From contig NZ_JAQTQR010000016.1 of the NCBI RefSeq assembly GCF_028712165.1, forward strand, positions 1 to 42,324: 42,324 nt of DNA, written 5' to 3'. Positions 29,097-42,324 of this stretch are shown piece after piece. The first letter of the stretch is position 1. Each line of letters begins with the position of its first letter. The notes under the pieces were generated by a model, which was not told where the DNA came from, did not search any database, and was given only the letters and a program-made list of their open reading frames with translations. Source of the stretch: Sulfuricurvum sp. (lineage in GTDB: Bacteria; Campylobacterota; Campylobacteria; Campylobacterales; Sulfurimonadaceae). A program made the translations under genes and the position numbers.

Positions 29097-31055
29097 TTAA
29101 CTGTTTTTCAGAGCTTCGATCTCTTCAGCTTTCTCTTCGATCGTGAGGAGTTCGTCTACTTTTTCCTCGTAGAGCGCTTTTGTTTTTTCCAGCTCTTCGG
29201 CGAGGACGCTAATCCCGATTTTTTCGTATTTTTTCGGATCGGCGAGGGAAGCGTTTAGCTCATCGATCTTGGCTTCGAGGGCTTCGATTTCTGTCGGGAG
29301 TTTTTCGAGAGCACGTTGTTCGTTAAAAGTGAGTTTGAAGACTTTTTGTTTTTCGTTTTGCGCGGTTACCGCAGTGGTTGCAGATTTGGCAAACTCTGCT
29401 TCCATAGCGTCCATTTCCTGGAGCTCTTTTTCATCTTCTAGGTATTCGCTGTAGGGTTTATAGCTCTCTTCGATGGTTCCGTCACCTTTGAAGATAAAGA
29501 GTTTTTTGGCAATCTTGTCGACGAAATATCTATCATGGCTGACGAGGATAACGGCTCCCGGGAAGTTTTGGAGTTTTTCTTCAAGGATATTGATTGTGGG
29601 AATATCGAGATCGTTGGTCGGTTCATCCAGAATTAGACAGTCCACTTTTTTCGTAAAGAGCAGGGCGAGGGCGACACGGTTTTTTTCTCCGCCGCTGAGG
29701 ACTCCGATCTTTTTGTCCAAAAATTCTCTCGGGAAGAGGAAGTTTTTTAGATAGCCGTAAACGTGGTAGTCTTGCCCCTGTGCATCGACGCGATCTCCGC
29801 CGTGAGGGCAGAATGTCTCGATGAGGTTGAGATTGTCATCGAGCATTTCACGGTGTTGATCAAAATAGCCGATTGTGAGATCCCCTATCTTGATAATTCC
29901 GCTGGTCGGTTTGAGGCGTCCGAGCAGTGCTTTGAGCAGCGTCGATTTTCCGCTCCCGTTGGGGCCGACTACGGCAATGACGTCTTTTTGCAGGATTCGG
30001 GTTGAGAAGTCTTTGATGAGGAGTTTATCTCCGAGAGTAAGTCCGAGATGCTCAATCTCGAAAAGCATCTTCTGGCGGTTGATTCCCTCTGAACGGTTAA
30101 AGTGTTTTGCTTCGCGCTCGAGTTCGAGTTTCATTTTTCGAATTTTAGAAGGATTGTTTTTAGCATCTTCGCGCAGCTGCAATACCCGCTGTTTGCGTCC
30201 TTCGTTTCGTTTTAGACGTGCTTTGACTCCGCGACGGAGCCATTCGTTCTCGGTTTTGAGGAGTTTTAGGAGGTTGTCGTGCTGTTGAGCCATGGTACGG
30301 AGCAACTCCTGCTTTTGTTCCAGATAGTTGCTGTAACCCCCGTTAAATTCGCGAAGAGAACAATCTTCGACTTCGATCGTTTTGGTCGCGACCTGATCGA
30401 TAAAATAACGGTCATGCGAGATAAAGAGGAGGGTGAAACGCTCTTTGAGAATCAGCTCTTCGAGAAACTCGACCATGTAGACGTCGAGATGGTTGGTTGG
30501 TTCGTCGAGGAGAAGGATATCGGGTTTTTGGAGTAAGAGTGAGGCGAGGGCGACACGGCGTTGTTCCCCTCCGCTGAGGAGATCGACTTTTTTATTCTCA
30601 TACTCTTTGAGCATAAAATGGTGCATCACCCGCTCGATTTTATCATCGAGGTTCCAGGCATTGTGATGATCAAGGAAATTAGTCAGTGTGGCTTGTTCAT
30701 CGAGAAGTGCGCTATTATCAAATTCTTCGGCAAGGAGGACGGAAATCTCATCAAAACGGACTTTTGCCGATTTCAGCTCACCAAGACCTGCTTCAATCGC
30801 TTCGCGTACCGTGTGAGAAGGATCAAATTTCGGTACTTGGGAGAGCATCTTGATCTCGATACCTTGACGGTTGATCCGCTCACCCCCATCCGTATCAAGT
30901 GATCCGTGGACGATCTTCATCAGTGTCGATTTGCCGCTGCCGTTTTTGCCGACGATGACGACGCGTTCCCCCTCATCGATATGGAAATTGATATTTTCTA
31001 AAATTTTTTGGGCTTCGTAGTGTTTGCTGACACCGAGGAGATCGACTAATGCCAT
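29097..31055 (-). CDS. uup: ABC-F ATPase, Uup type
   Basis: The 652-residue soluble protein has two ABC ATPase domains and no membrane segment. Walker A motifs are GKNGSGKS (36-43) and GPNGSGKS (364-371); signatures are LSGGEQ (160-165) and LSGGEKNRVALA; Walker B motifs are LLLDEPTNHLD and LILDEPTNDLD. The linker has the basic EWLRRGVKARLKRNEGRK typical of Uup. A C-terminal coiled coil of about 60 residues (IEALEAKIDELNASL) also fits Uup, which binds DNA and ribosomes and affects precise excision of transposons in E. coli. Other ABC-F members are translation factors, so the exact role remains open. Confidence 0.92.
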   Translation of the reverse strand: MALVDLLGVSKHYEAQKILENINFHIDEGERVVIVGKNGSGKSTLMKIVHGSLDTDGGERINRQGIEIKMLSQVPKFDPSHTVREAIEAGLGELKSAKVRFDEISVLLAEEFDNSALLDEQATLTNFLDHHNAWNLDDKIERVMHHFMLKEYENKKVDLLSGGEQRRVALASLLLQKPDILLLDEPTNHLDVYMVEFLEELILKERFTLLFISHDRYFIDQVATKTIEVEDCSLREFNGGYSNYLEQKQELLRTMAQQHDNLLKLLKTENEWLRRGVKARLKRNEGRKQRVLQLREDAKNNPSKIRKMKLELEREAKHFNRSEGINRQKMLFEIEHLGLTLGDKLLIKDFSTRILQKDVIAVVGPNGSGKSTLLKALLGRLKPTSGIIKIGDLTIGYFDQHREMLDDNLNLIETFCPHGGDRVDAQGQDYHVYGYLKNFLFPREFLDKKIGVLSGGEKNRVALALLFTKKVDCLILDEPTNDLDIPTINILEEKLQNFPGAVILVSHDRYFVDKIAKKLFIFKGDGTIEESYKPYSEYLEDEKELQEMDAMEAEFAKSATTAVTAQNEKQKVFKLTFNEQRALEKLPTEIEALEAKIDELNASLADPKKYEKIGISVLAEELEKTKALYEEKVDELLTIEEKAEEIEALKNS

Positions 31056-31202: not shown

Positions 31203-31535
31203 ATGAAAACAAATTTAACATTAGTCTTGTCTATGCTTTTAGCAGCAAGTGTAAGTGTCAATGCAGGACAAATAGACGGCGGAGCAGTCGTGGGCAGTAT
31301 GGTCGGTGCGGGAGTCGGTTCAGCAGTCGGTTCAGCGACCGGTGGTAAAAACGGTGCAATCATCGGCGGCGGTGTCGGCGGGGCACTCGGAGCAGCGGTC
31401 GGAAGCAAAGATCAGCCACGGGCTGGGACTAGAGAAAACACGGTATATGTAGAGGGTAGAAATCGGGATGATTATCGAGAACACCATGATAATGGAAGAC
31501 ATAAAGGACACCATAAGCATCACGATCGTGATTGA
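31203..31535 (+). CDS. Glycine-zipper secreted protein with His-rich tail
   Basis: From ATG 31203 (GAGGAG at about 31188-31193) the protein is 110 residues. A signal peptide of about 20 residues (MKTNLTLVLSM to VNAG) is followed by a glycine-zipper stretch with GxxxG repeats (GSMVGAGVGSAVGSATGG, then IIGGGVGGALGAAVG), as in outer-membrane lipoproteins and 2TM glycine-zipper domains. The tail is charged and rich in His, Asp, Arg and Lys (HHDNGRHKGHHKHHDRD), possibly metal-binding. There is no lipobox cysteine. The function is unknown, most likely in the cell envelope. Confidence 0.8.
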   Translation: MKTNLTLVLSMLLAASVSVNAGQIDGGAVVGSMVGAGVGSAVGSATGGKNGAIIGGGVGGALGAAVGSKDQPRAGTRENTVYVEGRNRDDYREHHDNGRHKGHHKHHDRD

Positions 31536-31538
31536 TTG

Positions 31539-31597
31539 TAAAAATACCCTTTAAAAACAGTGATTGCGTGAGAGATACCATATCGCAATCGCGTAAT
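31539..31597. repeat. 59-bp direct repeat, left copy (3' gene-end fragment)
   Basis: Identical to 37683-37741 except for one base (A at 31582, G at 37726). Read on the minus strand it encodes NYAIAIWYLSRNHCF and a stop, the C-terminal end of the small membrane protein whose full gene is at 37695-37997. Upstream in this frame there is soon a stop codon, so this copy is a 5'-truncated remnant. It lies 47 bp past the 3' end of the REC-HD-GYP gene. Confidence 0.9.
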
Positions 31598-31644
31598 TAA
31601 CGATAACTGCTTGTTATACATATATGAATTATATCGGAGGAATT

Positions 31645-33147
31645 TTATTTTAATAATTCTTCCAAATCTTCGAGAGAATGTATCAGATAGCTATCCGTAT
31701 TAAATTCTTTGAGTTCCAGAGTGATTAGGTTATCTGATTTTTGAAGAAGTGGTGTGAACAATGATAAATCTAAACTGATTGGGTTATTGGATAAGAGGAC
31801 AAAATCATCACCATGCAGACGGAAAAGTACTTCATCCTCCGATTTTTTACGTAGAATATCAGCAAAAGACTTTAAAAACAAGTCGCCTTTGTCCCATCCG
31901 TAACGGTTATTATAGAGATTGAAATTATGGATAAAGATAATTTTTAGATAGAGAGTATTTGGATTATTTTGATGTTGAACTAAAAATAGATCTAGATAAT
32001 GGGGATTATAGATTTTACATAATGAATCTTCAAAAAAGAAAGAAAAACGTTTCTGTTCCATTTCCGTCGAGGGGAGCTGAGAAATATTCGTATTGATCTC
32101 GATACCGGATAATACGGTGATGGCCGCATCGGTTACTTCAGGGTTAAATTGTGTACCGGAATATTTTTTGAGTTCATCGATAGCCAATTCAATGTTCATT
32201 CTGGGTTTATAAATACGGTTTGTTGTCATAGCATCAAATGCATCAGCCACAATCATAATTCGAGAGAGCGGAGGTATGGCGTCGCCTTGAATCCCGAGCG
32301 GATAGCCGGTTCCGTCATGCCGTTCATGGTGTGCCGCAACAATTTGTGAGAGTTCAAAATACATCGGAATATTTTGCAGCATGTTTGAGCCGGTTGTAAC
32401 GTGCTCACAAATCAGGCGGTATTCGAGATCATCGAGCTTTCCGGGTTTGAGCAAGACGGAATCCGGAGTCACTATTTTGCCGATATCATGCAAAATTCCC
32501 GCACGATATACGAGATCACACTCTTTAGTGCTATACCCCATTTTTTCAGCAATGAGCTTACAGTATGTTGCAACACGTTCCGAATGTCCGCCGGTATAGG
32601 TATCGCGTTTTTCGACCAGTTCGACGAATGAGAGGAGCGTTTTTTCATAGTTTTCTATTTTTTCTATTTCGAGTGTAATATTTTTTTCGGTTCGGACCCT
32701 TACCATCTCTTCTAAAGACTCTTTATAGAGTTCGTTTTCACGGTATTTGTTGATTTTGTCAACGATTTTAAAAAGGATGAGATTGATATCGTCAAAGTCG
32801 ATCGGTTTCACGAGATAGCCGCTGGCATGGAGGGAAAGCGCATCGAGGAGATAGGGCACTTCCGAAAAAGCGGTTGTAATAATTATCTCTTGTTCCGGAA
32901 CTATCTCTTTAATAGCTTTAATCATTTCCAACCCGTTCATGTGGGGCATTTGTATATCGGTGATAATAATATCGTAGATTTTTTTTCGAAAAGCGATTAG
33001 CCCTTCTTCTCCGTTTGATGCGGTATCTACCTGCGGAAAAATGAGTCTGAGATAATCAACGACACTTTTTTGAAGGGCTGCATCATCCTCGACATATAAA
33101 ATAGAGATTGACGAACTGATTGCTTTGAGCTCTTTCAAATATGCCAT
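31645..33147 (-). CDS. Response regulator: REC–HD-GYP–degenerate GGDEF
   Basis: The 500-residue protein has an N-terminal receiver domain with acidic pocket D21/D22, phospho-acceptor D64 in IITDIQMP and K114. The HD-GYP phosphodiesterase domain (about 168-345) keeps H188, H220-D221 in ILHDIGK, H249, H273-H274 and the HDGTGYP motif (277-283), so it should hydrolyse c-di-GMP when phosphorylated. The last 130 residues resemble a GGDEF domain: a NRYGWDKGDLFLKSFA segment and HGDDF (445-449) in place of GGDEF, so cyclase activity is unlikely and it may bind GTP or only act as a regulator. It lies 12 bp after the histidine kinase gene and is its obvious partner. Confidence 0.9.
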   Translation of the reverse strand: MAYLKELKAISSSISILYVEDDAALQKSVVDYLRLIFPQVDTASNGEEGLIAFRKKIYDIIITDIQMPHMNGLEMIKAIKEIVPEQEIIITTAFSEVPYLLDALSLHASGYLVKPIDFDDINLILFKIVDKINKYRENELYKESLEEMVRVRTEKNITLEIEKIENYEKTLLSFVELVEKRDTYTGGHSERVATYCKLIAEKMGYSTKECDLVYRAGILHDIGKIVTPDSVLLKPGKLDDLEYRLICEHVTTGSNMLQNIPMYFELSQIVAAHHERHDGTGYPLGIQGDAIPPLSRIMIVADAFDAMTTNRIYKPRMNIELAIDELKKYSGTQFNPEVTDAAITVLSGIEINTNISQLPSTEMEQKRFSFFFEDSLCKIYNPHYLDLFLVQHQNNPNTLYLKIIFIHNFNLYNNRYGWDKGDLFLKSFADILRKKSEDEVLFRLHGDDFVLLSNNPISLDLSLFTPLLQKSDNLITLELKEFNTDSYLIHSLEDLEELLK

Positions 33148-33159
33148 TGCATAAGCCTT

Positions 33160-36100
33160 TTAAGATAGTATCATCGGTAATCCGATATAAAAGCAGCATC
33201 CGACACTGTCACTGCTCCACCACAGTCTACCTCCGAGATGTTTGGAGATAATAATATTTGACATATAAAGTCCGAGCCCTGTACCGTTTTCGGCTTTTGT
33301 TGTGACGTAGGGCTGGGAGATTGTATTTTTGATCGAAGGGCTGATTCCTCCGCCGTTGTCACAAACCTGAATGATAATTTCCCTATCTTCACGTGTGAGT
33401 CCAATGCGGATGATTCCTGTGGTCGGATTATGTTCTTTGATCGCATCTTTTGCATTGTTAATAAGATTGATAAGGGCTTGAAGGAGTTGATTTTGGTAGG
33501 TATGAATTTCAAACTCTTGATTTTTTGGAAGTTCCAAGAGGATACCGTTATTATCGAGCCCTTTTTGAATAAGGGTGACTAATTTTTCGATGATGGTTGC
33601 CATATTCACTTTGTCTTTGACTTTGTCCGGTTTAAAAAAGTCCCGAAAATCATCAATTGTACGGGAAAGATAATGAGTTTGCTCATCCATGGTTTCGATC
33701 ACCTGTTCGAGTACATCATCGGATATCTCATTATCGAGCTCAAGATGTGCTTTGAGGGTATTGGATGCCATCGAAATAATACTCAGAGGTTGTCGCCATT
33801 GATGGGCAATCATCGCGAGCATGTCTCCCATAGCCGCTTGACGGGCTTGTGAGATCATGATTTCATCTTTACGCTGAATCTCGGTAATGTCAATAGCGGA
33901 GGAAACAATCAAAGGTTTGTTTTTATGATTGTGATCTAGCCGTACCGAACTGACCAGCCAAACCCGATTTTCACCGGTTTTGACCGTGATATGGTGCTCT
34001 TTTGGTTCTCCTTGGATCGGTTGAATATACGATAATTTGAGCTCTTGTTTGTATGGCAAACTTATATTCGGATACAGTTTATCCATCCAGAGATCCAGTG
34101 TCGGAATCTCTTTGTACGAATACCCGGTACACTCTTTCAGTGTGAAATTGGTTAGGATAATATCCCCCTCATCGTCATGCAACATGATCGGGATAGGGGC
34201 GTATTCGATAATATTTTGGCGTTCCGCTTTTTCCATTTCCAGTTCATACATTAGGAATTTTAGCTGTGAAATATCACGGATAATGAGGAGAAAATAGAGC
34301 GGATTTCCGAATTCATCGTGCAATAAAACTGCTGAATGGTTAACCCAGATGACATTTCCATTTTTATGCTGATACCGCTTTTCGACTTGATAATTGTTCC
34401 GTTGATTTTCCAAAAGAAGCTTTTTCAGATGAATATCTACCGCTATATCTTCAGGATAAATAATATCACTAAGGTTCATGTATAACAGCTCTTCTTTGGT
34501 ATAGCCTAAAAGAGTGCAGAGATATGTATTGGCGTCTATCCAGCTATCATCAAGTCCGATATGGGCGATTCCAATATTCGCCTCTTGGAAGGTGAGCTTA
34601 TAAAGATTTTCTTGCTGTGCAAGCTTTTGGATAAGAACATCTTCTTTTGTGATATCGACAGCGGAGCAAATGACTCCGGTAATATTTCCTTCTTGATCTT
34701 TGATTGCGGCATTGGTCCATGACATCAGATGCCTACCATTATTTGCGTCGGTTACGGCAAAAGTGTTATTAGGGATAATCAGTATTTCTCCACTGAGAAT
34801 CGAGGAAAATATCTCTTTAAATTTGTCACGTGATTCGGATGGGACAAAGATATCAATCCAGTTTTTTCCGATAACCTGATCAGAAGGAAGCCCTAAAATA
34901 GTGCACCCTTCAGTATTGATGGTCAGTATATTGGCATTTGTGTCGAGTGCCATGACCAGCATTCCGCTAATACTCATATAAAGATCGGAGAGTTGATGTT
35001 CACGGATCGCAATTTTTTCGAGTCGGTTTTGTTCCGTGATATCGTGAAAAGAGATTACGGCACCGATGATTTTTCCGCCTTCTATGATTGGGCTTTCGAC
35101 TAATTCGACTTCGAAGGAGGTTCCGTCTTTACGCCAAAAAACTTCTTCTCCCCGATGGTGTTTACCCAGTCGAAGAACATTTTGAAGTGGGCATTCATTT
35201 TCTAGGTAAGCGGTTCCATCGGATTTAGTACGTTGCCAGAACTCATTACTCTTTTTCCCGATAAGCTCATCCGCACTCAATCCCAGCATTTTTGCGGCGG
35301 CAGCGTTGACAAAAGTGTGACGCATATCCATATCGAACCCCAGAATCCCATCGAGCGTTGAGTTCAGAATTAAAGCGTGCTGATGTTGGATATTTTCGAT
35401 ATGGGACAAGGATACATGGAGCTCTTCATTGGAGCTTTGTAACTCTTCATTCGATGTTTCCAACTCTTCATTGGAGCTTTGCAACTCTTCATTAGAACTT
35501 TGCAACTCTTCGTTCATGAGCTGCAAAGTCTCTTTGTTGATTGTTAATTCATCGGATAGTAAACGGATTTCTTCTCTGGCAGTTGTGAGCTGAGAGGTGA
35601 GATTCTTAAGCATCATTGATTCATCCGGAAGAGTTAATGCTCCGGGGTTAAACTGAAGATCACTACTGCTTAGTTCCTGAAAATAGAGCAAAAGCATTGG
35701 ACTGCCGGTTAATCCGTTAAAAGGGTAGGCTATCACACGAACAAAGGTATCATCGGATGAAGTTGAAGCCGTTTCAATAAATTTTGTTGATTCAGGATTT
35801 TTGGAAGCAAGGGCGCGAATGAGAAGCGTTTTAACATCGTAACGGAGCGACTCATCCAGATTCAATAAAAGATTAAGGGTAGGAAAACCATCGGAAAAAC
35901 GGATATAAGGGATAGCACCTTTTTTATAGACCATCGTAAAATTTTGATCTACGATGATGCAGTGAGGGGCAAAAAAATCAAACACGGTATGGGCTATTTG
36001 ATCTTCAATATTTTTCATTTCAATTTCGGTGACCGGATTCGGTTCTTTTTCTGATTTTTGGTCTAGATGTTTTGAAAAATAATGGTTAGAAATTTTGGGA

Positions 36101-37497
36101 GGGTTTTGAATATATTCTTTTTCGTAAATTTTATGCAGGGTATTGAGCGGCGTGAAATAATTGACACTCAAGAGGGTTGATTCTGAGGAACCCAAAAAGA
36201 GGATCCCATGATCTTTGAGGGCGTAATGAAAAAGAGAAAATGTCTCTTTTTGCGCGACAGGCAAAAGATAGATCAGTAGATTTCTGCAGCTGATGAGATC
36301 TTGATTGATAAACGGGGGATCTTGGAGAAGATCGTGATGGGTAAAAACAATGGATTGACGGAGAGTCTGTACTACTTTATACCCATCATTAAACGGGGTG
36401 AAATATTCGTCCAATAAGGTTTGATCCACCTCTTGGAGAGACTCTTTAGAATAAAAACCTGCGCGCGCTGTTGCAAGTGCATCATCATCGATATCGGTGG
36501 CAAAAATACGAATATCAAGATTTTTTTGGAGACGTTTACAAATTTCACTAACCAAAATTGCCAATGAATACGCCTCTTCTCCGGTCGAACAGGCAACGCA
36601 CCAAATGCGTAATTCATGATTTTCGGATTTTTTTTCCAAGGTGGAGGTCAGAGTATGCTCAAGAGCGTTAAATGCCTCTTTATCTCGAAAAAAAGCAGTG
36701 ACCCCAATCAAAATTTCCTGATACAAAAGTTGTGCTTCCTCATGATGCTCCAGTAAATATTCCGCATATTCCGGGAGTGAATCGATGTGAAGGGCCATCA
36801 TCCGTTTTTTAATCCTCCGTGAAACCGTCTCGTCTTTGTATTTTCGCAAATCGAGGTGAACTTGATTACGAAGTACGGTTTGGATCGTTTTCATCGGTTC
36901 CATCGTCGCATTTTTCAGGGGTGACTTAGATCCATGGATCAGATGATCAAGATGTCCCGGGATCTCTTCCAGAGTTAAAATATCGTCAATAACTCCAGCT
37001 TCAATGGCACTTTTCGGCATTCCATCATAATGGGTTTCTCCCAGTGACTGGGCTATAGTTCTCCCTCCGTGTTCTTTAATAGACCTCATCCCTTTTGTCC
37101 CATCATGCCCAGAGCCGCTTAATAAGATTCCAATGGTATTTTTTTTCTTGTACAAAGCCAAACTTTCAAAGAGTGTATCGACAGAAGGTGTCGGAGAATG
37201 AGGCATATTTTCAGCTTTTTCGAGGACAAGGCGATGATTTTTAAAATAAAGATTGCAGTTGGACGGGATAATGTAAATATGATCGGGAAGAAAGGCAGCG
37301 TCATAGTCTACTTCGGATACTGGGAGGAGGGAATGGTGCGCTAATATAGAAGCTAGGAGACTTTTATTATTGGGGGTCAAATGCTGTGCCACAATATATA
37401 TACAGCCTAAACCCGATGGCAGCAGTGGAACAAGTTTTTGCAACGCCTCCAAACCACCCGCACTGGATCCGATTCCGACATACGTATATTTTTTCAT
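33160..37497 (-). CDS. CheB-CheR-PAS hybrid histidine kinase
   Basis: This 1445-residue soluble protein fuses chemotaxis-type modules to a sensor kinase. CheB methylesterase: GSSAGG with catalytic S12, H39 in AQHL, D132 in GHDGT (residues 1-190). CheR methyltransferase: ILIGVTAFFRD near 262 and SAM loop CVACSTGEEAYS near 300 (205-460). A coiled coil of SSNEELQ heptads follows (660-695). Then come about four PAS domains (705-820, 835-950, 965-1080, 1090-1205). The kinase has H1232 in IAHQWRQPL, LINNAKDAI, DNGGGI and NGTGLGLYMS. No receiver domain is fused; the REC-HD-GYP protein downstream likely accepts the phosphate. What is methylated is unknown, as no chemoreceptor gene is adjacent. Confidence 0.95.
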   Translation of the reverse strand: MKKYTYVGIGSSAGGLEALQKLVPLLPSGLGCIYIVAQHLTPNNKSLLASILAHHSLLPVSEVDYDAAFLPDHIYIIPSNCNLYFKNHRLVLEKAENMPHSPTPSVDTLFESLALYKKKNTIGILLSGSGHDGTKGMRSIKEHGGRTIAQSLGETHYDGMPKSAIEAGVIDDILTLEEIPGHLDHLIHGSKSPLKNATMEPMKTIQTVLRNQVHLDLRKYKDETVSRRIKKRMMALHIDSLPEYAEYLLEHHEEAQLLYQEILIGVTAFFRDKEAFNALEHTLTSTLEKKSENHELRIWCVACSTGEEAYSLAILVSEICKRLQKNLDIRIFATDIDDDALATARAGFYSKESLQEVDQTLLDEYFTPFNDGYKVVQTLRQSIVFTHHDLLQDPPFINQDLISCRNLLIYLLPVAQKETFSLFHYALKDHGILFLGSSESTLLSVNYFTPLNTLHKIYEKEYIQNPPKISNHYFSKHLDQKSEKEPNPVTEIEMKNIEDQIAHTVFDFFAPHCIIVDQNFTMVYKKGAIPYIRFSDGFPTLNLLLNLDESLRYDVKTLLIRALASKNPESTKFIETASTSSDDTFVRVIAYPFNGLTGSPMLLLYFQELSSSDLQFNPGALTLPDESMMLKNLTSQLTTAREEIRLLSDELTINKETLQLMNEELQSSNEELQSSNEELETSNEELQSSNEELHVSLSHIENIQHQHALILNSTLDGILGFDMDMRHTFVNAAAAKMLGLSADELIGKKSNEFWQRTKSDGTAYLENECPLQNVLRLGKHHRGEEVFWRKDGTSFEVELVESPIIEGGKIIGAVISFHDITEQNRLEKIAIREHQLSDLYMSISGMLVMALDTNANILTINTEGCTILGLPSDQVIGKNWIDIFVPSESRDKFKEIFSSILSGEILIIPNNTFAVTDANNGRHLMSWTNAAIKDQEGNITGVICSAVDITKEDVLIQKLAQQENLYKLTFQEANIGIAHIGLDDSWIDANTYLCTLLGYTKEELLYMNLSDIIYPEDIAVDIHLKKLLLENQRNNYQVEKRYQHKNGNVIWVNHSAVLLHDEFGNPLYFLLIIRDISQLKFLMYELEMEKAERQNIIEYAPIPIMLHDDEGDIILTNFTLKECTGYSYKEIPTLDLWMDKLYPNISLPYKQELKLSYIQPIQGEPKEHHITVKTGENRVWLVSSVRLDHNHKNKPLIVSSAIDITEIQRKDEIMISQARQAAMGDMLAMIAHQWRQPLSIISMASNTLKAHLELDNEISDDVLEQVIETMDEQTHYLSRTIDDFRDFFKPDKVKDKVNMATIIEKLVTLIQKGLDNNGILLELPKNQEFEIHTYQNQLLQALINLINNAKDAIKEHNPTTGIIRIGLTREDREIIIQVCDNGGGISPSIKNTISQPYVTTKAENGTGLGLYMSNIIISKHLGGRLWWSSDSVGCCFYIGLPMILS
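35421..35513 (-). repeat. 21-bp tandem coding repeat (heptad coiled coil)
   Basis: Four to five copies of a 21-base unit encode SSNEELQ/TSNEELQ heptads between the CheR and PAS parts of the kinase. The unit length equals exactly two helical turns, so the coil can lengthen or shorten by replication slippage without a frameshift. Similar heptads are known in this protein family. Confidence 0.8.
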
Positions 37498-37517
37498 TTT
37501 AACCTAATTGTTGTTTT

Positions 37518-37571
37518 TGAGCGCTCACATATCTATATACATAATATAACAAGGATATTCTGTTATGTCAA
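37518..37571 (-). promoter_or_regulatory. Consensus promoter and palindrome of the kinase operon
   Basis: On the minus strand TTGACA (37571-37566) and TATATT (37548-37543) are separated by 17 bases, one of the best sigma-70 promoters in the window. Between the expected start of transcription (about 37536) and the ATG at 37497 lies the perfect palindrome TGAGCGCTCA (37518-37527), a possible operator. Confidence 0.7.
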
Positions 37572-37638
37572 GTTTAAATAAAAATAAATATAAGATGATT
37601 TTTTAATCAGTATTGTAATTTTTTGCTTTTACAGAAAC

Positions 37639-37683
37639 TTATGCTGATTTAAGGGCGCTTTGAAATGAAAAAGGGTTAGTAAT
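37639..37683 (-). pseudogene. Remnant of a nitrate-reductase-like 3' end
   Basis: On the minus strand this stretch encodes TNPFSFQSALKSA and a stop. It matches the C-terminus of the complete-ended reductase gene at 40552 (LNDPFSSQSALKSAQVTL). In DNA, 36 bases align to 40580-40615 with 29 identities and no gaps, and most changes are at synonymous positions. It has no start codon and is followed at once by the right copy of the 59-bp repeat, so it is a scar of a second reductase copy or of a rearrangement. Confidence 0.65.
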
Positions 37684-37741
37684 AAAAATACCCTTTAAAA
37701 ACAGTGATTGCGTGAGAGATACCATGTCGCAATCGCGTAAT
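37683..37741. repeat. 59-bp direct repeat, right copy
   Basis: This copy contains the 3' end of the small membrane-protein gene (stop at 37695) plus 12 bases beyond it. It is 58/59 identical to 31539-31597, 6144 bp away in the same orientation. Together they bracket the kinase/response-regulator operon and its promoter. Confidence 0.9.
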
Positions 37742-37997
37742 CATTATAGGGTGTTTCACGCTGAGCAACGGGAATGGAATCGTTGCGAAGTTTGCTTCGG
37801 ATGATTCCAAAGACAATAAAACCTAAAAGCAACGTTCCTAGTACGATAAACCAATCACTCGTCCACCATACAAACCCTGCAATAATATAGTTTCCATAAC
37901 TCAGTGCATATCCCAATATCCGTGCAAAAAATCGGCATTGACGTGTCGGCAATGTAGGCGTTGGATCAATATGGAAAGTTAATTGCTCATTATTCAT
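37695..37997 (-). CDS. Small two-helix membrane protein
   Basis: The 100-residue protein has two hydrophobic segments (about 27-45 and 48-66) and then a basic cytoplasmic tail (IRSKLRNDSIPVAQRET) ending in an aromatic stretch (YNDYAIATWYLSRNHCF). There is no other Met that could serve as start, and no RBS precedes ATG 37997; a TATAAT lies only seven bases before it, suggesting a leaderless message. The family is not recognised. Its 3' end is duplicated at 31539, which shows that this gene was the site of a rearrangement. Confidence 0.7.
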   Translation of the reverse strand: MNNEQLTFHIDPTPTLPTRQCRFFARILGYALSYGNYIIAGFVWWTSDWFIVLGTLLLGFIVFGIIRSKLRNDSIPVAQRETPYNDYAIATWYLSRNHCF

Positions 37998-38031: not shown

Positions 38032-40449
38032 TTATAATGTATTCGTCTCAAAATAGTTGAGCAGATCCGTATAAGTTAAAGGACGGCTATGCCAGTATCC
38101 TTGAATAGCAAAACATTCCAAATCATTTAAAATAGTGACTTGTTCGATCGTCTCGGCACCTTCGGCTATTGTTTTAATTCCTAGGGATGTAGCCATTGTG
38201 ATAATTGCCTGAACGATAGCTCGGTCGTGCGGATCCGTTACCAGATCATCGACAAAGGATTTATCGATTTTGAGCGTGGAGACCGGGAATTTTTTTAGAT
38301 AAGACATAGAAGAATATCCGGTTCCGAAGTCATCGATTGAAAAAGTGATACCGTGAACTGTCAGCTGGTTCATCTTTTCAATAGCGAGTGTTGGATTATC
38401 GACCAAAGCTCCTTCTGTGATTTCAAGTTCCAGCTTTTCAAAAGGGAACCCTGTTTCCTGCAATGCTTTTGTAATGATCTCATTGAGATGCTGATTTCGA
38501 AACTGGACAGGAGAGAGATTGACGGATATTTTGGGGATGAAACCGGTAGTTTCGGAGAGTTTCATCATTTTCGATAATGCCTCTTTGAGAATCCATTCAC
38601 CTAAGGTAATGATTAGATCGGTCTCTTCGGCAATCGGAATAAAGTATGCGGGGTTCATAAATCCAAGAGTTGGGCTATTCCAGCGTATGAGAACTTCTAA
38701 TCCTATAAACTGTTTTTCACGTGTATTGTATTTAGGCTGATAGACGAGAAAGAGCTCATCCGAACCGATCGCCTTGCGAAGAGCATTTTCGATAATCAAT
38801 GTTCCAGAAACAAAATCGCCGTTGGTCGGTTCAAAAAAGAGATACGTGTTTTTGCCTTTGATTTTTGCTCCGTACATTGCCATGTCGGCAGCTTTGATCA
38901 ATGTCTCAGCATCGTCTCCATCCTGCGGATACAACGCAATACCGATACTGGCAGTCATATAAATATCATTTTGATCAATAAAAAATGGTTCCTTCATCAA
39001 ATGTAAAATGTCATGAACAGATTTTTCTATTGATTCTTTGGAGTCAGAGAATTCGGTTATAATCGCAAATTCATCTCCCCCTAAGCGGACACAGAATCGG
39101 TTCTCATCACATATCTGAGCGAATCGATCGGCAAGATTTTGTAAGAGCTGATCTCCGACTGAATGACCGAGTGAATCATTGACCATTTTAAAGCGATCCA
39201 AGTCGATATAGATAAGGCCGAAAATTTTGTCGTTTTCCTGTGCTTCAAGGATTTGAGTATTAAGACGTTCACGGAAGAAATGACGGTTTGGAAGTTTGGT
39301 CAGAGGGTCGAATAAAATCAATTGTTGAAGATGTTCTTCCGTATGTTTACGATCTTCGATGTCTTCGATAACACCGATATAATGAGTGATTTTTCCATCA
39401 TTATCCAATACAGGAGAGATGGTTTCCAAACACCAGTAGATTGCACCGTTTTTTTTCTGATTTTTAAATTCTCCTCTCCATGTAAAACCCTTGGAAATTG
39501 TTTCCCACATATTTTTGTATATTTCTGAGCTATTGAGATGGGTTCGCATTACATTGGGTTTTTTGCCGATGAGTTCTTGCCGGGTATAACCGTTGATTTT
39601 ACTAAAGGCTTTATTGACATATTCGATAATACCTTGTGTGTTTGTGATAATGATTCCGTTTCCGCTTTGTTCCAATGCATGCGTAAGCATTAGCAATCGC
39701 TGTCGGCTTGTTTCAAACGCTTTTTCACTTCCGATCAGTCGGCGTCCTAAAAACAATATCATACCAATACCGATGATCCAGAGAATCAAGTGGGTCAAGA
39801 TCAGATTTGAAATACTATCTCGCTCAATAAGTTTATATGAGTCCAAAGGGATTGTGACATCGGTCGCACCCCGTAACCCGCCGACGGGGATTCCTGTCCA
39901 GGCATGACATTTTATACACCCCTGTTCCATATACATCGGCTGCATCATACGTAGATATCTTTTTCCGTCGACTTGGATGATCTCTGTGTACTCTTTTTTT
40001 CCTGATGAAAGGATATCAAGAGCTTTGGATTCCCACGTATCTGGAGCATTTTCGGGATTCATATATACTTTTGCAGTAATCCGTGCTTTGACTCCGTAGA
40101 GTTTCCCGTAGTCATTCATAATTTCTCGTAACATTGTTGCCGGATTGTAGAGAGTGAGCATTTTCCCGCTGCTGATATTAACATCACGATCTTTTATATT
40201 GGCAAGAAACGGGATAGGTTTTGTGTTTTCATCGACCGTGAGATATGCTCCGCCATGGCGTGTTGCCCACAAACGGAAAGCGAGGTCTTTGTTTAGATTG
40301 GTTTTTGCTTCTTGGGTAGCAAGTTGCAGTATTTGTTGATTGATATTATGAATATTCCAAATTAACGAGGTGAGGATAAGGATCATGAACCCGATAATAA
40401 AAAGGGGAATATATTTGGATAGAGTAACCGCTTTAGTGATGTTAGGCAC
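38032..40449 (-). CDS. Periplasmic heme-c sensor (DUF3365-like)–PAS–GGDEF–EAL protein
   Basis: The 805-residue membrane protein has helix 1 at about 12-32 and helix 2 at about 216-236, enclosing a 180-residue periplasmic domain. That domain resembles DUF3365/Tll0287-type sensors and carries C178-I-K-C181-H182, a c-type heme site. A PAS domain follows (about 255-370). The cyclase site is intact (GGDEF, 457-461) but lacks an RxxD I-site at the normal place. The EAL domain has E585-V-L, SVNLS, EITEG, DDFGTGYSS (706-714), LKIDK and EGAET (763-767), all close to active forms. It could couple heme redox state or ligand (O2, NO) to c-di-GMP. The start is GTG with AAGGAAG before it. It lies 102 bp downstream of the nitrate-reductase-like gene. 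Confidence 0.93.
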   Translation of the reverse strand: MPNITKAVTLSKYIPLFIIGFMILILTSLIWNIHNINQQILQLATQEAKTNLNKDLAFRLWATRHGGAYLTVDENTKPIPFLANIKDRDVNISSGKMLTLYNPATMLREIMNDYGKLYGVKARITAKVYMNPENAPDTWESKALDILSSGKKEYTEIIQVDGKRYLRMMQPMYMEQGCIKCHAWTGIPVGGLRGATDVTIPLDSYKLIERDSISNLILTHLILWIIGIGMILFLGRRLIGSEKAFETSRQRLLMLTHALEQSGNGIIITNTQGIIEYVNKAFSKINGYTRQELIGKKPNVMRTHLNSSEIYKNMWETISKGFTWRGEFKNQKKNGAIYWCLETISPVLDNDGKITHYIGVIEDIEDRKHTEEHLQQLILFDPLTKLPNRHFFRERLNTQILEAQENDKIFGLIYIDLDRFKMVNDSLGHSVGDQLLQNLADRFAQICDENRFCVRLGGDEFAIITEFSDSKESIEKSVHDILHLMKEPFFIDQNDIYMTASIGIALYPQDGDDAETLIKAADMAMYGAKIKGKNTYLFFEPTNGDFVSGTLIIENALRKAIGSDELFLVYQPKYNTREKQFIGLEVLIRWNSPTLGFMNPAYFIPIAEETDLIITLGEWILKEALSKMMKLSETTGFIPKISVNLSPVQFRNQHLNEIITKALQETGFPFEKLELEITEGALVDNPTLAIEKMNQLTVHGITFSIDDFGTGYSSMSYLKKFPVSTLKIDKSFVDDLVTDPHDRAIVQAIITMATSLGIKTIAEGAETIEQVTILNDLECFAIQGYWHSRPLTYTDLLNYFETNTL

Positions 40450-40551: not shown

Positions 40552-42324
40552 TCACACCAAATTTTTAAGAGTGACTTGAGCCGATTTTAAGGCACTTTGG
40601 GATGAAAAAGGGTCATTTAATGCAGGAACCAGAGTATTGATCGGGTTTTTCGGATAACCAAACGGGGCAAACAGATGGTTGGGTGAGAGTTTTCCGAAAC
40701 GGACGGGAAGTTCGAGAGAACCGAGATTATTACTGATAATTGCAATGTCTCCCTCCTGCAGACCTTTCTTTAGCGCTTCATCACTGTTCATCAGAAGATA
40801 GGGTGCTTCTTCTCCTTTGAGCAACTCTTCGACTTGCCCGGTACGGGTCATTGTATGCCACTGTTTTTTAGTTCGGCCGGTAATCAATACAAACGTATCG
40901 GTATCCAGATGAGGAGAAGAGGAGATGATCGGATGAAATTGTGCCTTGAGCGTTGCTGTGGCAAAGCATTCATCCGTATAAAGGCGTTCACCTCCCCATT
41001 GGTATGAAAGGGATTCGTACTTTTGGGTGCTTTGATCGCATAATCGATTTTTTGTGAGGGATTTATAGTCGTTATAGATCGCTTCTGTATCGGTGTAGTC
41101 GAAGCCTTCAAATCCCAGTTTCTGTGCTACATAGCAAATAATATCGCTGTCGCTTTTGGCTTTATCAGGGCCGGATTTAAAAGGGCGTACTCTTTTGATA
41201 AAGCGTTCCGAGTTGGTCATGCTCCCCTCTTTTTCTCCCCATGAAAGTGTCGGAAGGACGAGATTGGCAAGCGATGCCGTTTCACTGAGAACACAGTCTT
41301 GGACAACCAAAAAAAGCTCAGGATTACTAAATGCCCGCTCCGTCTTTTTCAGATCGGGAAGGGTTAGAAGGGGATTAGTGCAGGCAACCCATAAAAAGCG
41401 GATTTTATTCTCCAAGATAGCATCGACGGCATCGGTAACAGTGATACCGGGAGTAGGGGAAATCGTATTGGTCGGGAGGTTCCAATACACTTCGCAAACT
41501 GCTCTATCGTCCGGATTGCGCACATCCCGGTATCCCGGGAGTCCGTTAGAGAGATATCCCACTTCCCGTCCACCCATCGCGTTTGGCTGACCTGTGAGTG
41601 AGAGAGGGAGCCCTTTTTGGGCATTTATGCGTCCTGTTGCCAAAAATAGGTTGATAAATCCGAGATTGCGCATAACTCCGTCAACCGCTTGATTGAGCCC
41701 CTGACACCATAATCCGAGTATCTTTTTATTGGATGCGAAGAGTTCAACCAGTGATTCGACATCGTTCAAAGAGAGTCCACAGGATGCGACGGATTCTGCA
41801 AACGGTATTTCGATTGCAGCATTTATTGTTTGCTCGAACCCTTCGGTTGCACGGTCTATAAAGGCGGTATCGCATGCCCCGCGTCGATAAAGCTCGGCTA
41901 AAAGGGCATTATAAAGGGTCGTATCGCTTCCGCCGGAGAGTCCTATCCAGAGATCGCTTTTTTCGGCTGTTTCGGTATAGATCGGATCGATGACGATGAT
42001 TTTTGTCTCCGGATGGGCTTTTTTACGGGCCAGTATTCTGCGGAAGATGACCGGATGTGCCCATGCGGGATTGGAACCGCTGATGATTATGACGTCTGCA
42101 TCATCGATATCGGCGTAACTGCCTACGGGACCGTCACTGCCGAAAGCCATTTTGTGGGCGACAACGGCGGTTGCCATGCAAAGGCGGGAGTTTGCATCGA
42201 CGTTGTTGGTTCCTAGATGTCCTTTGATCAATTTTGTAAAGAGATAGCTCTCTTCGGTAAGAAGCTGTCCTGAGAGGTAAAAGTAGAGGGCATCTTTGGG
42301 AAGATCGGAAATGTTTTTGGCGAG
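40552..42324 (-). CDS. Molybdopterin nitrate reductase-type catalytic subunit, 5' end outside the window
   Basis: The frame is open to the right window edge, so about 590 C-terminal residues are seen and the N-terminal [4Fe-4S] domain is missing. Visible are IKGHLGTNNVDANSRLCM with the Cys that ligates Mo, DVIIISGSNPAWAHPVIFRRI, KIIVIDP, SGGSDTTLYNALLA, LPTLSWGEKEGSMTNSERFIKRV and the C-terminal molybdopterin-binding barrel (VLITGRTKKQWHTMTRTGQV). NSRLCM with TNN and the single-subunit form point to the assimilatory NasA/NarB or periplasmic NapA branch; the start of the gene would be needed to see a Tat signal. The C-terminal sequence is duplicated as a remnant at 37639-37683. Confidence 0.88.
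   Translation of the reverse strand, partial: LAKNISDLPKDALYFYLSGQLLTEESYLFTKLIKGHLGTNNVDANSRLCMATAVVAHKMAFGSDGPVGSYADIDDADVIIISGSNPAWAHPVIFRRILARKKAHPETKIIVIDPIYTETAEKSDLWIGLSGGSDTTLYNALLAELYRRGACDTAFIDRATEGFEQTINAAIEIPFAESVASCGLSLNDVESLVELFASNKKILGLWCQGLNQAVDGVMRNLGFINLFLATGRINAQKGLPLSLTGQPNAMGGREVGYLSNGLPGYRDVRNPDDRAVCEVYWNLPTNTISPTPGITVTDAVDAILENKIRFLWVACTNPLLTLPDLKKTERAFSNPELFLVVQDCVLSETASLANLVLPTLSWGEKEGSMTNSERFIKRVRPFKSGPDKAKSDSDIICYVAQKLGFEGFDYTDTEAIYNDYKSLTKNRLCDQSTQKYESLSYQWGGERLYTDECFATATLKAQFHPIISSSPHLDTDTFVLITGRTKKQWHTMTRTGQVEELLKGEEAPYLLMNSDEALKKGLQEGDIAIISNNLGSLELPVRFGKLSPNHLFAPFGYPKNPINTLVPALNDPFSSQSALKSAQVTLKNLV

Follow-up and report, generated by a model that had tools for sequence, protein, structure and literature searches.

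The locus and its genes

The window analysed here is a stretch of 42,324 nucleotides from a Sulfuricurvum sp. draft genome. On the minus strand, its region of interest reads fdh, a GGDEF-EAL gene, smp, a fragment of fdh, a kinase gene, an HD-GYP gene, a second and incomplete smp and then glyz, itself on the plus strand. The gene smp (37695..37997, minus strand) is an intact ORF of 100 amino acids encoding a putative membrane protein with no Pfam match; it is found in 39 of 41 Sulfuricurvum genomes, mostly adjoining an ABC-F gene. In the window, the ABC-F ATPase gene abcF (29097..31055, minus strand, recognized by Pfam) lies at the far side of the insert described below and represents a conserved native flank, which most relatives have next to smp or to glyz. 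It is followed by glyz (31203..31535, plus strand), the native left flank, which encodes a glycine-zipper protein with Pfam Gly-zipper hits. On the other side of smp lie the GGDEF-EAL gene (38032..40449, minus strand; Tll0287-like/PAS-GGDEF-EAL according to Pfam) and fdh (40552..42231, minus strand), a molybdopterin oxidoreductase gene with Pfam Molybdopterin and Molydop_binding domains. The fdh ORF opens with a TTG start near position 42324, where the contig ends, and it matches its Pfam profile from position 72 of 353 onward; this resident copy is therefore probably truncated by the end of the contig.

Between glyz and smp lies an operon of two intact genes, which are the only long ORFs of the insert. 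The first, on the minus strand, encodes a CheB-CheR-PAS-histidine kinase of 1445 amino acids (33160..37497; Pfam CheB_methylest, CheR, PAS, HisKA, HATPase_c), and the second a REC-HD-GYP response regulator of 500 amino acids with a GGDEF-like C-terminal domain (31645..33147, minus strand; Pfam Response_reg, HD_5, GGDEF). The GGDEF-like domain carries the motif HGDDF instead of GGDEF and is probably degenerate. The kinase gene includes four 21-bp coding repeats (35422-35526) that specify SNEELQS-type heptads; its orthologue in genome G008 has five. Ahead of the kinase gene and within the insert stands a promoter-like TTGACA-17-TATATT (37543..37571, minus strand) that matches 11 of 12 positions, the number of such sites in the region being not above chance. 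The ORFs of the insert include no integrase, recombinase or transposase, and no terminal inverted repeat connects its two ends. A plasmid search with the whole stretch gave nothing beyond short matches in conserved signalling domains, covering 1-2% of the query.

A gene end present twice

The operon is bracketed by a 59-bp direct repeat. The original prediction described its copies as 58/59 identical, in the same orientation and 6144 bp apart, and our recomputed comparison of 31539-31597 with 37683-37741 gave the same values, the distance being start to start. The right copy (37683..37741, minus strand) consists of the last 44 coding bases of the intact smp, its stop codon and 12 bp beyond; alignment to relatives with a single copy places its end at the junction with the fdh fragment, termed junction J. 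The left copy (31539..31597, minus strand) comprises the same 3' end and 12 bp past the stop, belongs to the incomplete smp and is attached to the native glyz, beginning 3 bp past the glyz stop codon. The sole mismatch is an A at 31582 in the left copy; relatives have G at this position, as does the right copy, and by this comparison the A is the derived state.

The sequence does not recur elsewhere. A pattern made from a 32-nt core of the repeat, with up to 3 mismatches allowed, hits two sites in the window (0 expected by chance), and the whole assembly (2,724,856 bp in 130 contigs) contains the same two copies and no third, which rules out a dispersed element. An Rfam scan gave no match at the gathering threshold. 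We also considered a short inverted repeat (GATTGCG...CGCAATC) within the 59-bp sequence; on inspection it is not conserved in relatives, and we read it as coding sequence.

Relatives without the operon

The search for an empty site proposed in the original prediction yielded a clear result. The order abcF - glyz - smp is present in the sister genome G021, whose smp product is 94% identical in amino acid sequence, and in G022, G023, G014 and G002, with glyz adjoining smp in each of them; in many other relatives smp directly adjoins abcF. The operon is absent from the smp locus in all relatives examined. Exactly one copy of the repeat sequence occurs in 25 of 29 loci tested, and none at threshold in the other 4. 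The homologous sequence of G021 and G015 continues uninterrupted from a few bases past glyz into the end of smp. Since relatives lack the operon and hold a single copy of the repeat region, the operon is a lineage-specific insertion. These single-copy empty sites bear out the view that a segment was integrated with duplication of a gene end. The two observations that would have spoken against it were not made: the operon is missing from this site in relatives, and the repeat is not spread over many loci. The further remark that recombination between the repeats would remove the operon cleanly is geometrically correct, the event itself being hypothetical.

The closest orthologues of the kinase/HD-GYP operon (68%) are found in G008 and G038, among other genes and in other surroundings, and the sister genome G021 has no comparable equivalent. 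No repeat-bracketed operon was found at equivalent sites in other genomes. Six loci with operon homologues display no comparable bracketing repeats, with the G008 and G038 contigs breaking near the operon, and no fdh or smp remnants were found beside the orthologous operons.

Gene remnants at the edges of the insert

The operon and its promoter had been thought to be exactly what lies between the repeats. The interval also holds a piece of the fdh 3' end (37622-37682) and the start of a second smp (31598-31644), so that both edges of the insert carry pieces of neighbouring chromosomal genes.

A DNA search with the insert matched its non-coding right end to G026 DNA adjoining smp (87% over 55 bp). 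The matched DNA is the 3' end of fdh, the gene upstream of smp in many relatives. The remnant, fdh_B' (37622..37682, minus strand), corresponds to the terminal ~60 bp of a molybdopterin oxidoreductase gene, includes a stop codon in frame, echoes the 3' end of the resident fdh and extends up to the junction with the right repeat copy. Its top match in the window is the fdh end on the expected strand, with a score reached by 0 of 5000 dinucleotide shuffles. It is closest to the fdh end of G026, a different species, with 44/52 identical positions, compared to 38/52 for the resident fdh, a phylogenetic signal that comes from about 52-55 nt.

In the left remnant, smp_B' (31598..31644, minus strand), a promoter-like TATAAT is followed by the start of a diverged smp, with an ATG (31621-31619) and 8 initial codons (MYNKQLSL) whose reading frame is not that of the adjoining 59-bp smp end. 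Within the window it aligns best to the smp start, on the same strand, with a score of 44 compared to 31 for the next best; a score as high was seen in 0 of 5000 dinucleotide shuffles. BLAST aligns it to the smp start with 28/35 identities, about 80%, over a remnant of only 47 nt. The left remnant is thus recognizable as a second smp that has kept its start and end, with the middle missing. The original prediction was correct in assigning the right repeat copy to the 3' end of an intact gene; its description of the left copy as a truncated gene end alone does not hold, as the remnant there retains a 5' start as well as the 3' end.

A variable slot between fdh and smp

The two genes represented by the remnants flank a variable slot in relatives. 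In seven genomes (G021, G022, G026, G002, G020, G038 and G035) fdh lies next to smp, and nothing sizeable intervenes. The window and G030 have a GGDEF-EAL gene at this position, and such a gene adjoins smp in G015 and G001. Because fdh and smp flank such a slot, the insert looks like another allele of it, with the kinase/HD-GYP operon as its content. A donor with this operon in the fdh-smp slot was not found in 41 Sulfuricurvum genomes, in 228 from the family or in a scan of contigs.

The resident genes abcF, smp, fdh and glyz are each closest to their counterparts in G021, so that the resident frame is native and the inserted allele more likely foreign. The remnants are diverged, and the repeat copies are identical at 58 of 59 positions; therefore both repeat copies are resident DNA, and the rest of the insert looks foreign. 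We consider it probable, at about two chances in three, that the resident allele (fdh-EAL-smp) was joined in tandem by the slot allele of a related species (fdh-kinase-HD-GYP-smp).

Tandem duplications are common, and an endogenous duplication of the segment from the fdh end through the slot to smp, followed by divergence of the slot content and decay of the second smp, yields the same gene order. A single such event would make all pieces equally old, and their ages differ: the repeat is 58/59 identical, as opposed to 38/52 for the fdh remnant and about 80% for the smp remnant when each is compared to the genome's own gene. The fdh remnant is moreover closer to G026 than to the fdh of its own genome, and the near identity of the repeat calls for later gene conversion limited to 59 bp. 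This history is accordingly an improbable one. The reverse direction of transfer, with the kinase/HD-GYP operon original to the slot, the EAL-smp segment imported upstream and the old smp decayed, is slightly less probable still. It leads to the same final order, and it fits with G021 also lacking a GGDEF-EAL gene beside smp; against it, the resident smp and fdh are closest to G021, that is, native, and one would expect the left repeat copy to be unlike the right one.

An insert flanked by direct copies of the 3' end of a gene is reminiscent of the att sites of integrative elements, and the original prediction allowed for integration at a gene end. Site-specific integration or transposition of a mobile unit, with the 59 bp as its attachment site or as a duplicated target, seems very unlikely at this locus: no recombinase is found among the genes identified by annotation near the insert, terminal inverted repeats are absent, the genome holds two copies of the repeat only, the homologues of the operon examined have no such repeats, and the edges are scraps of the genes that flank the slot. 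As these edges derive from genes neighbouring the slot, with no integrase and no inverted repeats, the 59-bp repeat and the gene scraps are better seen as insertion scars than as the ends of a mobile element. Least credible is an assembly artefact, in which sequences from two strains were fused or a circle outside the chromosome was built into it. A draft of 130 contigs and a repeat length near common k-mer sizes might invite this reading, which is countered by the uniqueness of the smp_B'/59 and 59/fdh_B' junctions and by the one mismatch that separates the repeat copies.

A possible course of the insertion

The tandem addition of a foreign slot allele could have proceeded as follows. The ancestral locus would have been fdh - (slot) - smp - (glyz) - abcF, the slot in this lineage being occupied by the GGDEF-EAL gene. 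A related donor, whose allele we infer from the remnants, would have carried the kinase/HD-GYP operon in the slot, in the order fdh_B - kinase - HD-GYP - smp_B. One fragment from this other species, taken up by transformation or conjugation and holding the donor allele with mere scraps of its flanking genes, would then have been inserted after the resident smp. At one end, the join may have been made within or near smp, connecting the start of the donor smp_B to the end of the resident smp. At the other end, an illegitimate join would have linked the resident sequence, at a point 12 bp downstream of the smp stop codon, to the final ~60 bp of fdh_B. Since the second join lies farther along than the first, the part of the resident smp end that separates the two would have been duplicated, which would account for the 59-bp repeat. 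The middle of the second smp was either lost later or absent from the join at the outset, which adds a step to the scheme. The operon would have stayed intact, and the cell would have gained an extra c-di-GMP two-component system.

The sequences at the two joins can be compared with this scheme. The smp_B start and the resident smp end are parts of the same gene, set out of register, and the resident smp end and the fdh_B end are unrelated. At junction J the sides share a few bases by inspection (TTA/ATTA), a microhomology that is at most suggestive and not significant. The genome has ComEC-like and DprA genes, which permit competence without proving it; both families also match E. coli in controls.

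Similarity to known kinds of recombination

Two described processes resemble the proposed insertion. Homology-facilitated illegitimate recombination (HFIR) in natural transformation (PMC3240628) likewise combines a homologous join at one end with an illegitimate join at the other and results in the gain of foreign genes. With microhomology of 3-10 bp it usually leaves a deletion (PMC3240628), and its products typically show deletion of resident DNA and inserts of about 1 kb, whereas the present locus gained ~6 kb, shows a short duplication and has no evident deletion. A linear fragment that has circularised can, through a single crossover, produce a part-duplication of the homologous locus (PMC3240628). 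Small additive tandem duplications without flanking repeats are described in pneumococcal transformation (PMC3784515). The merodiploids of Streptococcus pneumoniae (PMC3784515) have two alleles side by side and duplicated resident DNA, as does the present locus; they come from a laboratory cross, in contrast to the old, mostly decayed footprint between species seen here. One-end-homologous additive integration is marked by one join within homologous sequence and another without homology, and this trait is recognizable at our locus.

Some genomic islands are integrated at gene 3' ends by tyrosine integrases. They share with the present insert a direct repeat of a gene 3' end, which is found here at both borders, and a gene that stays intact. 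Unlike such islands, the insert has no integrase, and its edges are pieces of neighbouring chromosomal genes.

Implications

We regard the insert as a well-preserved scar of gene acquisition, left by a known kind of recombination and not by a new system. It carries a caution for the reading of similar loci: a direct repeat at a gene end need not be an attachment site. As a tentative and rather doubtful generalization, the fdh-smp interval may be a preferred exchange slot of Sulfuricurvum for c-di-GMP modules, which would be swapped between species via the shared flanking genes and could be stacked in tandem without any enzyme of a mobile element. The locus itself would represent a natural footprint of how a signalling operon is gained between species without a mobile element, with both genes that flanked the donor slot still recognizable at its ends.
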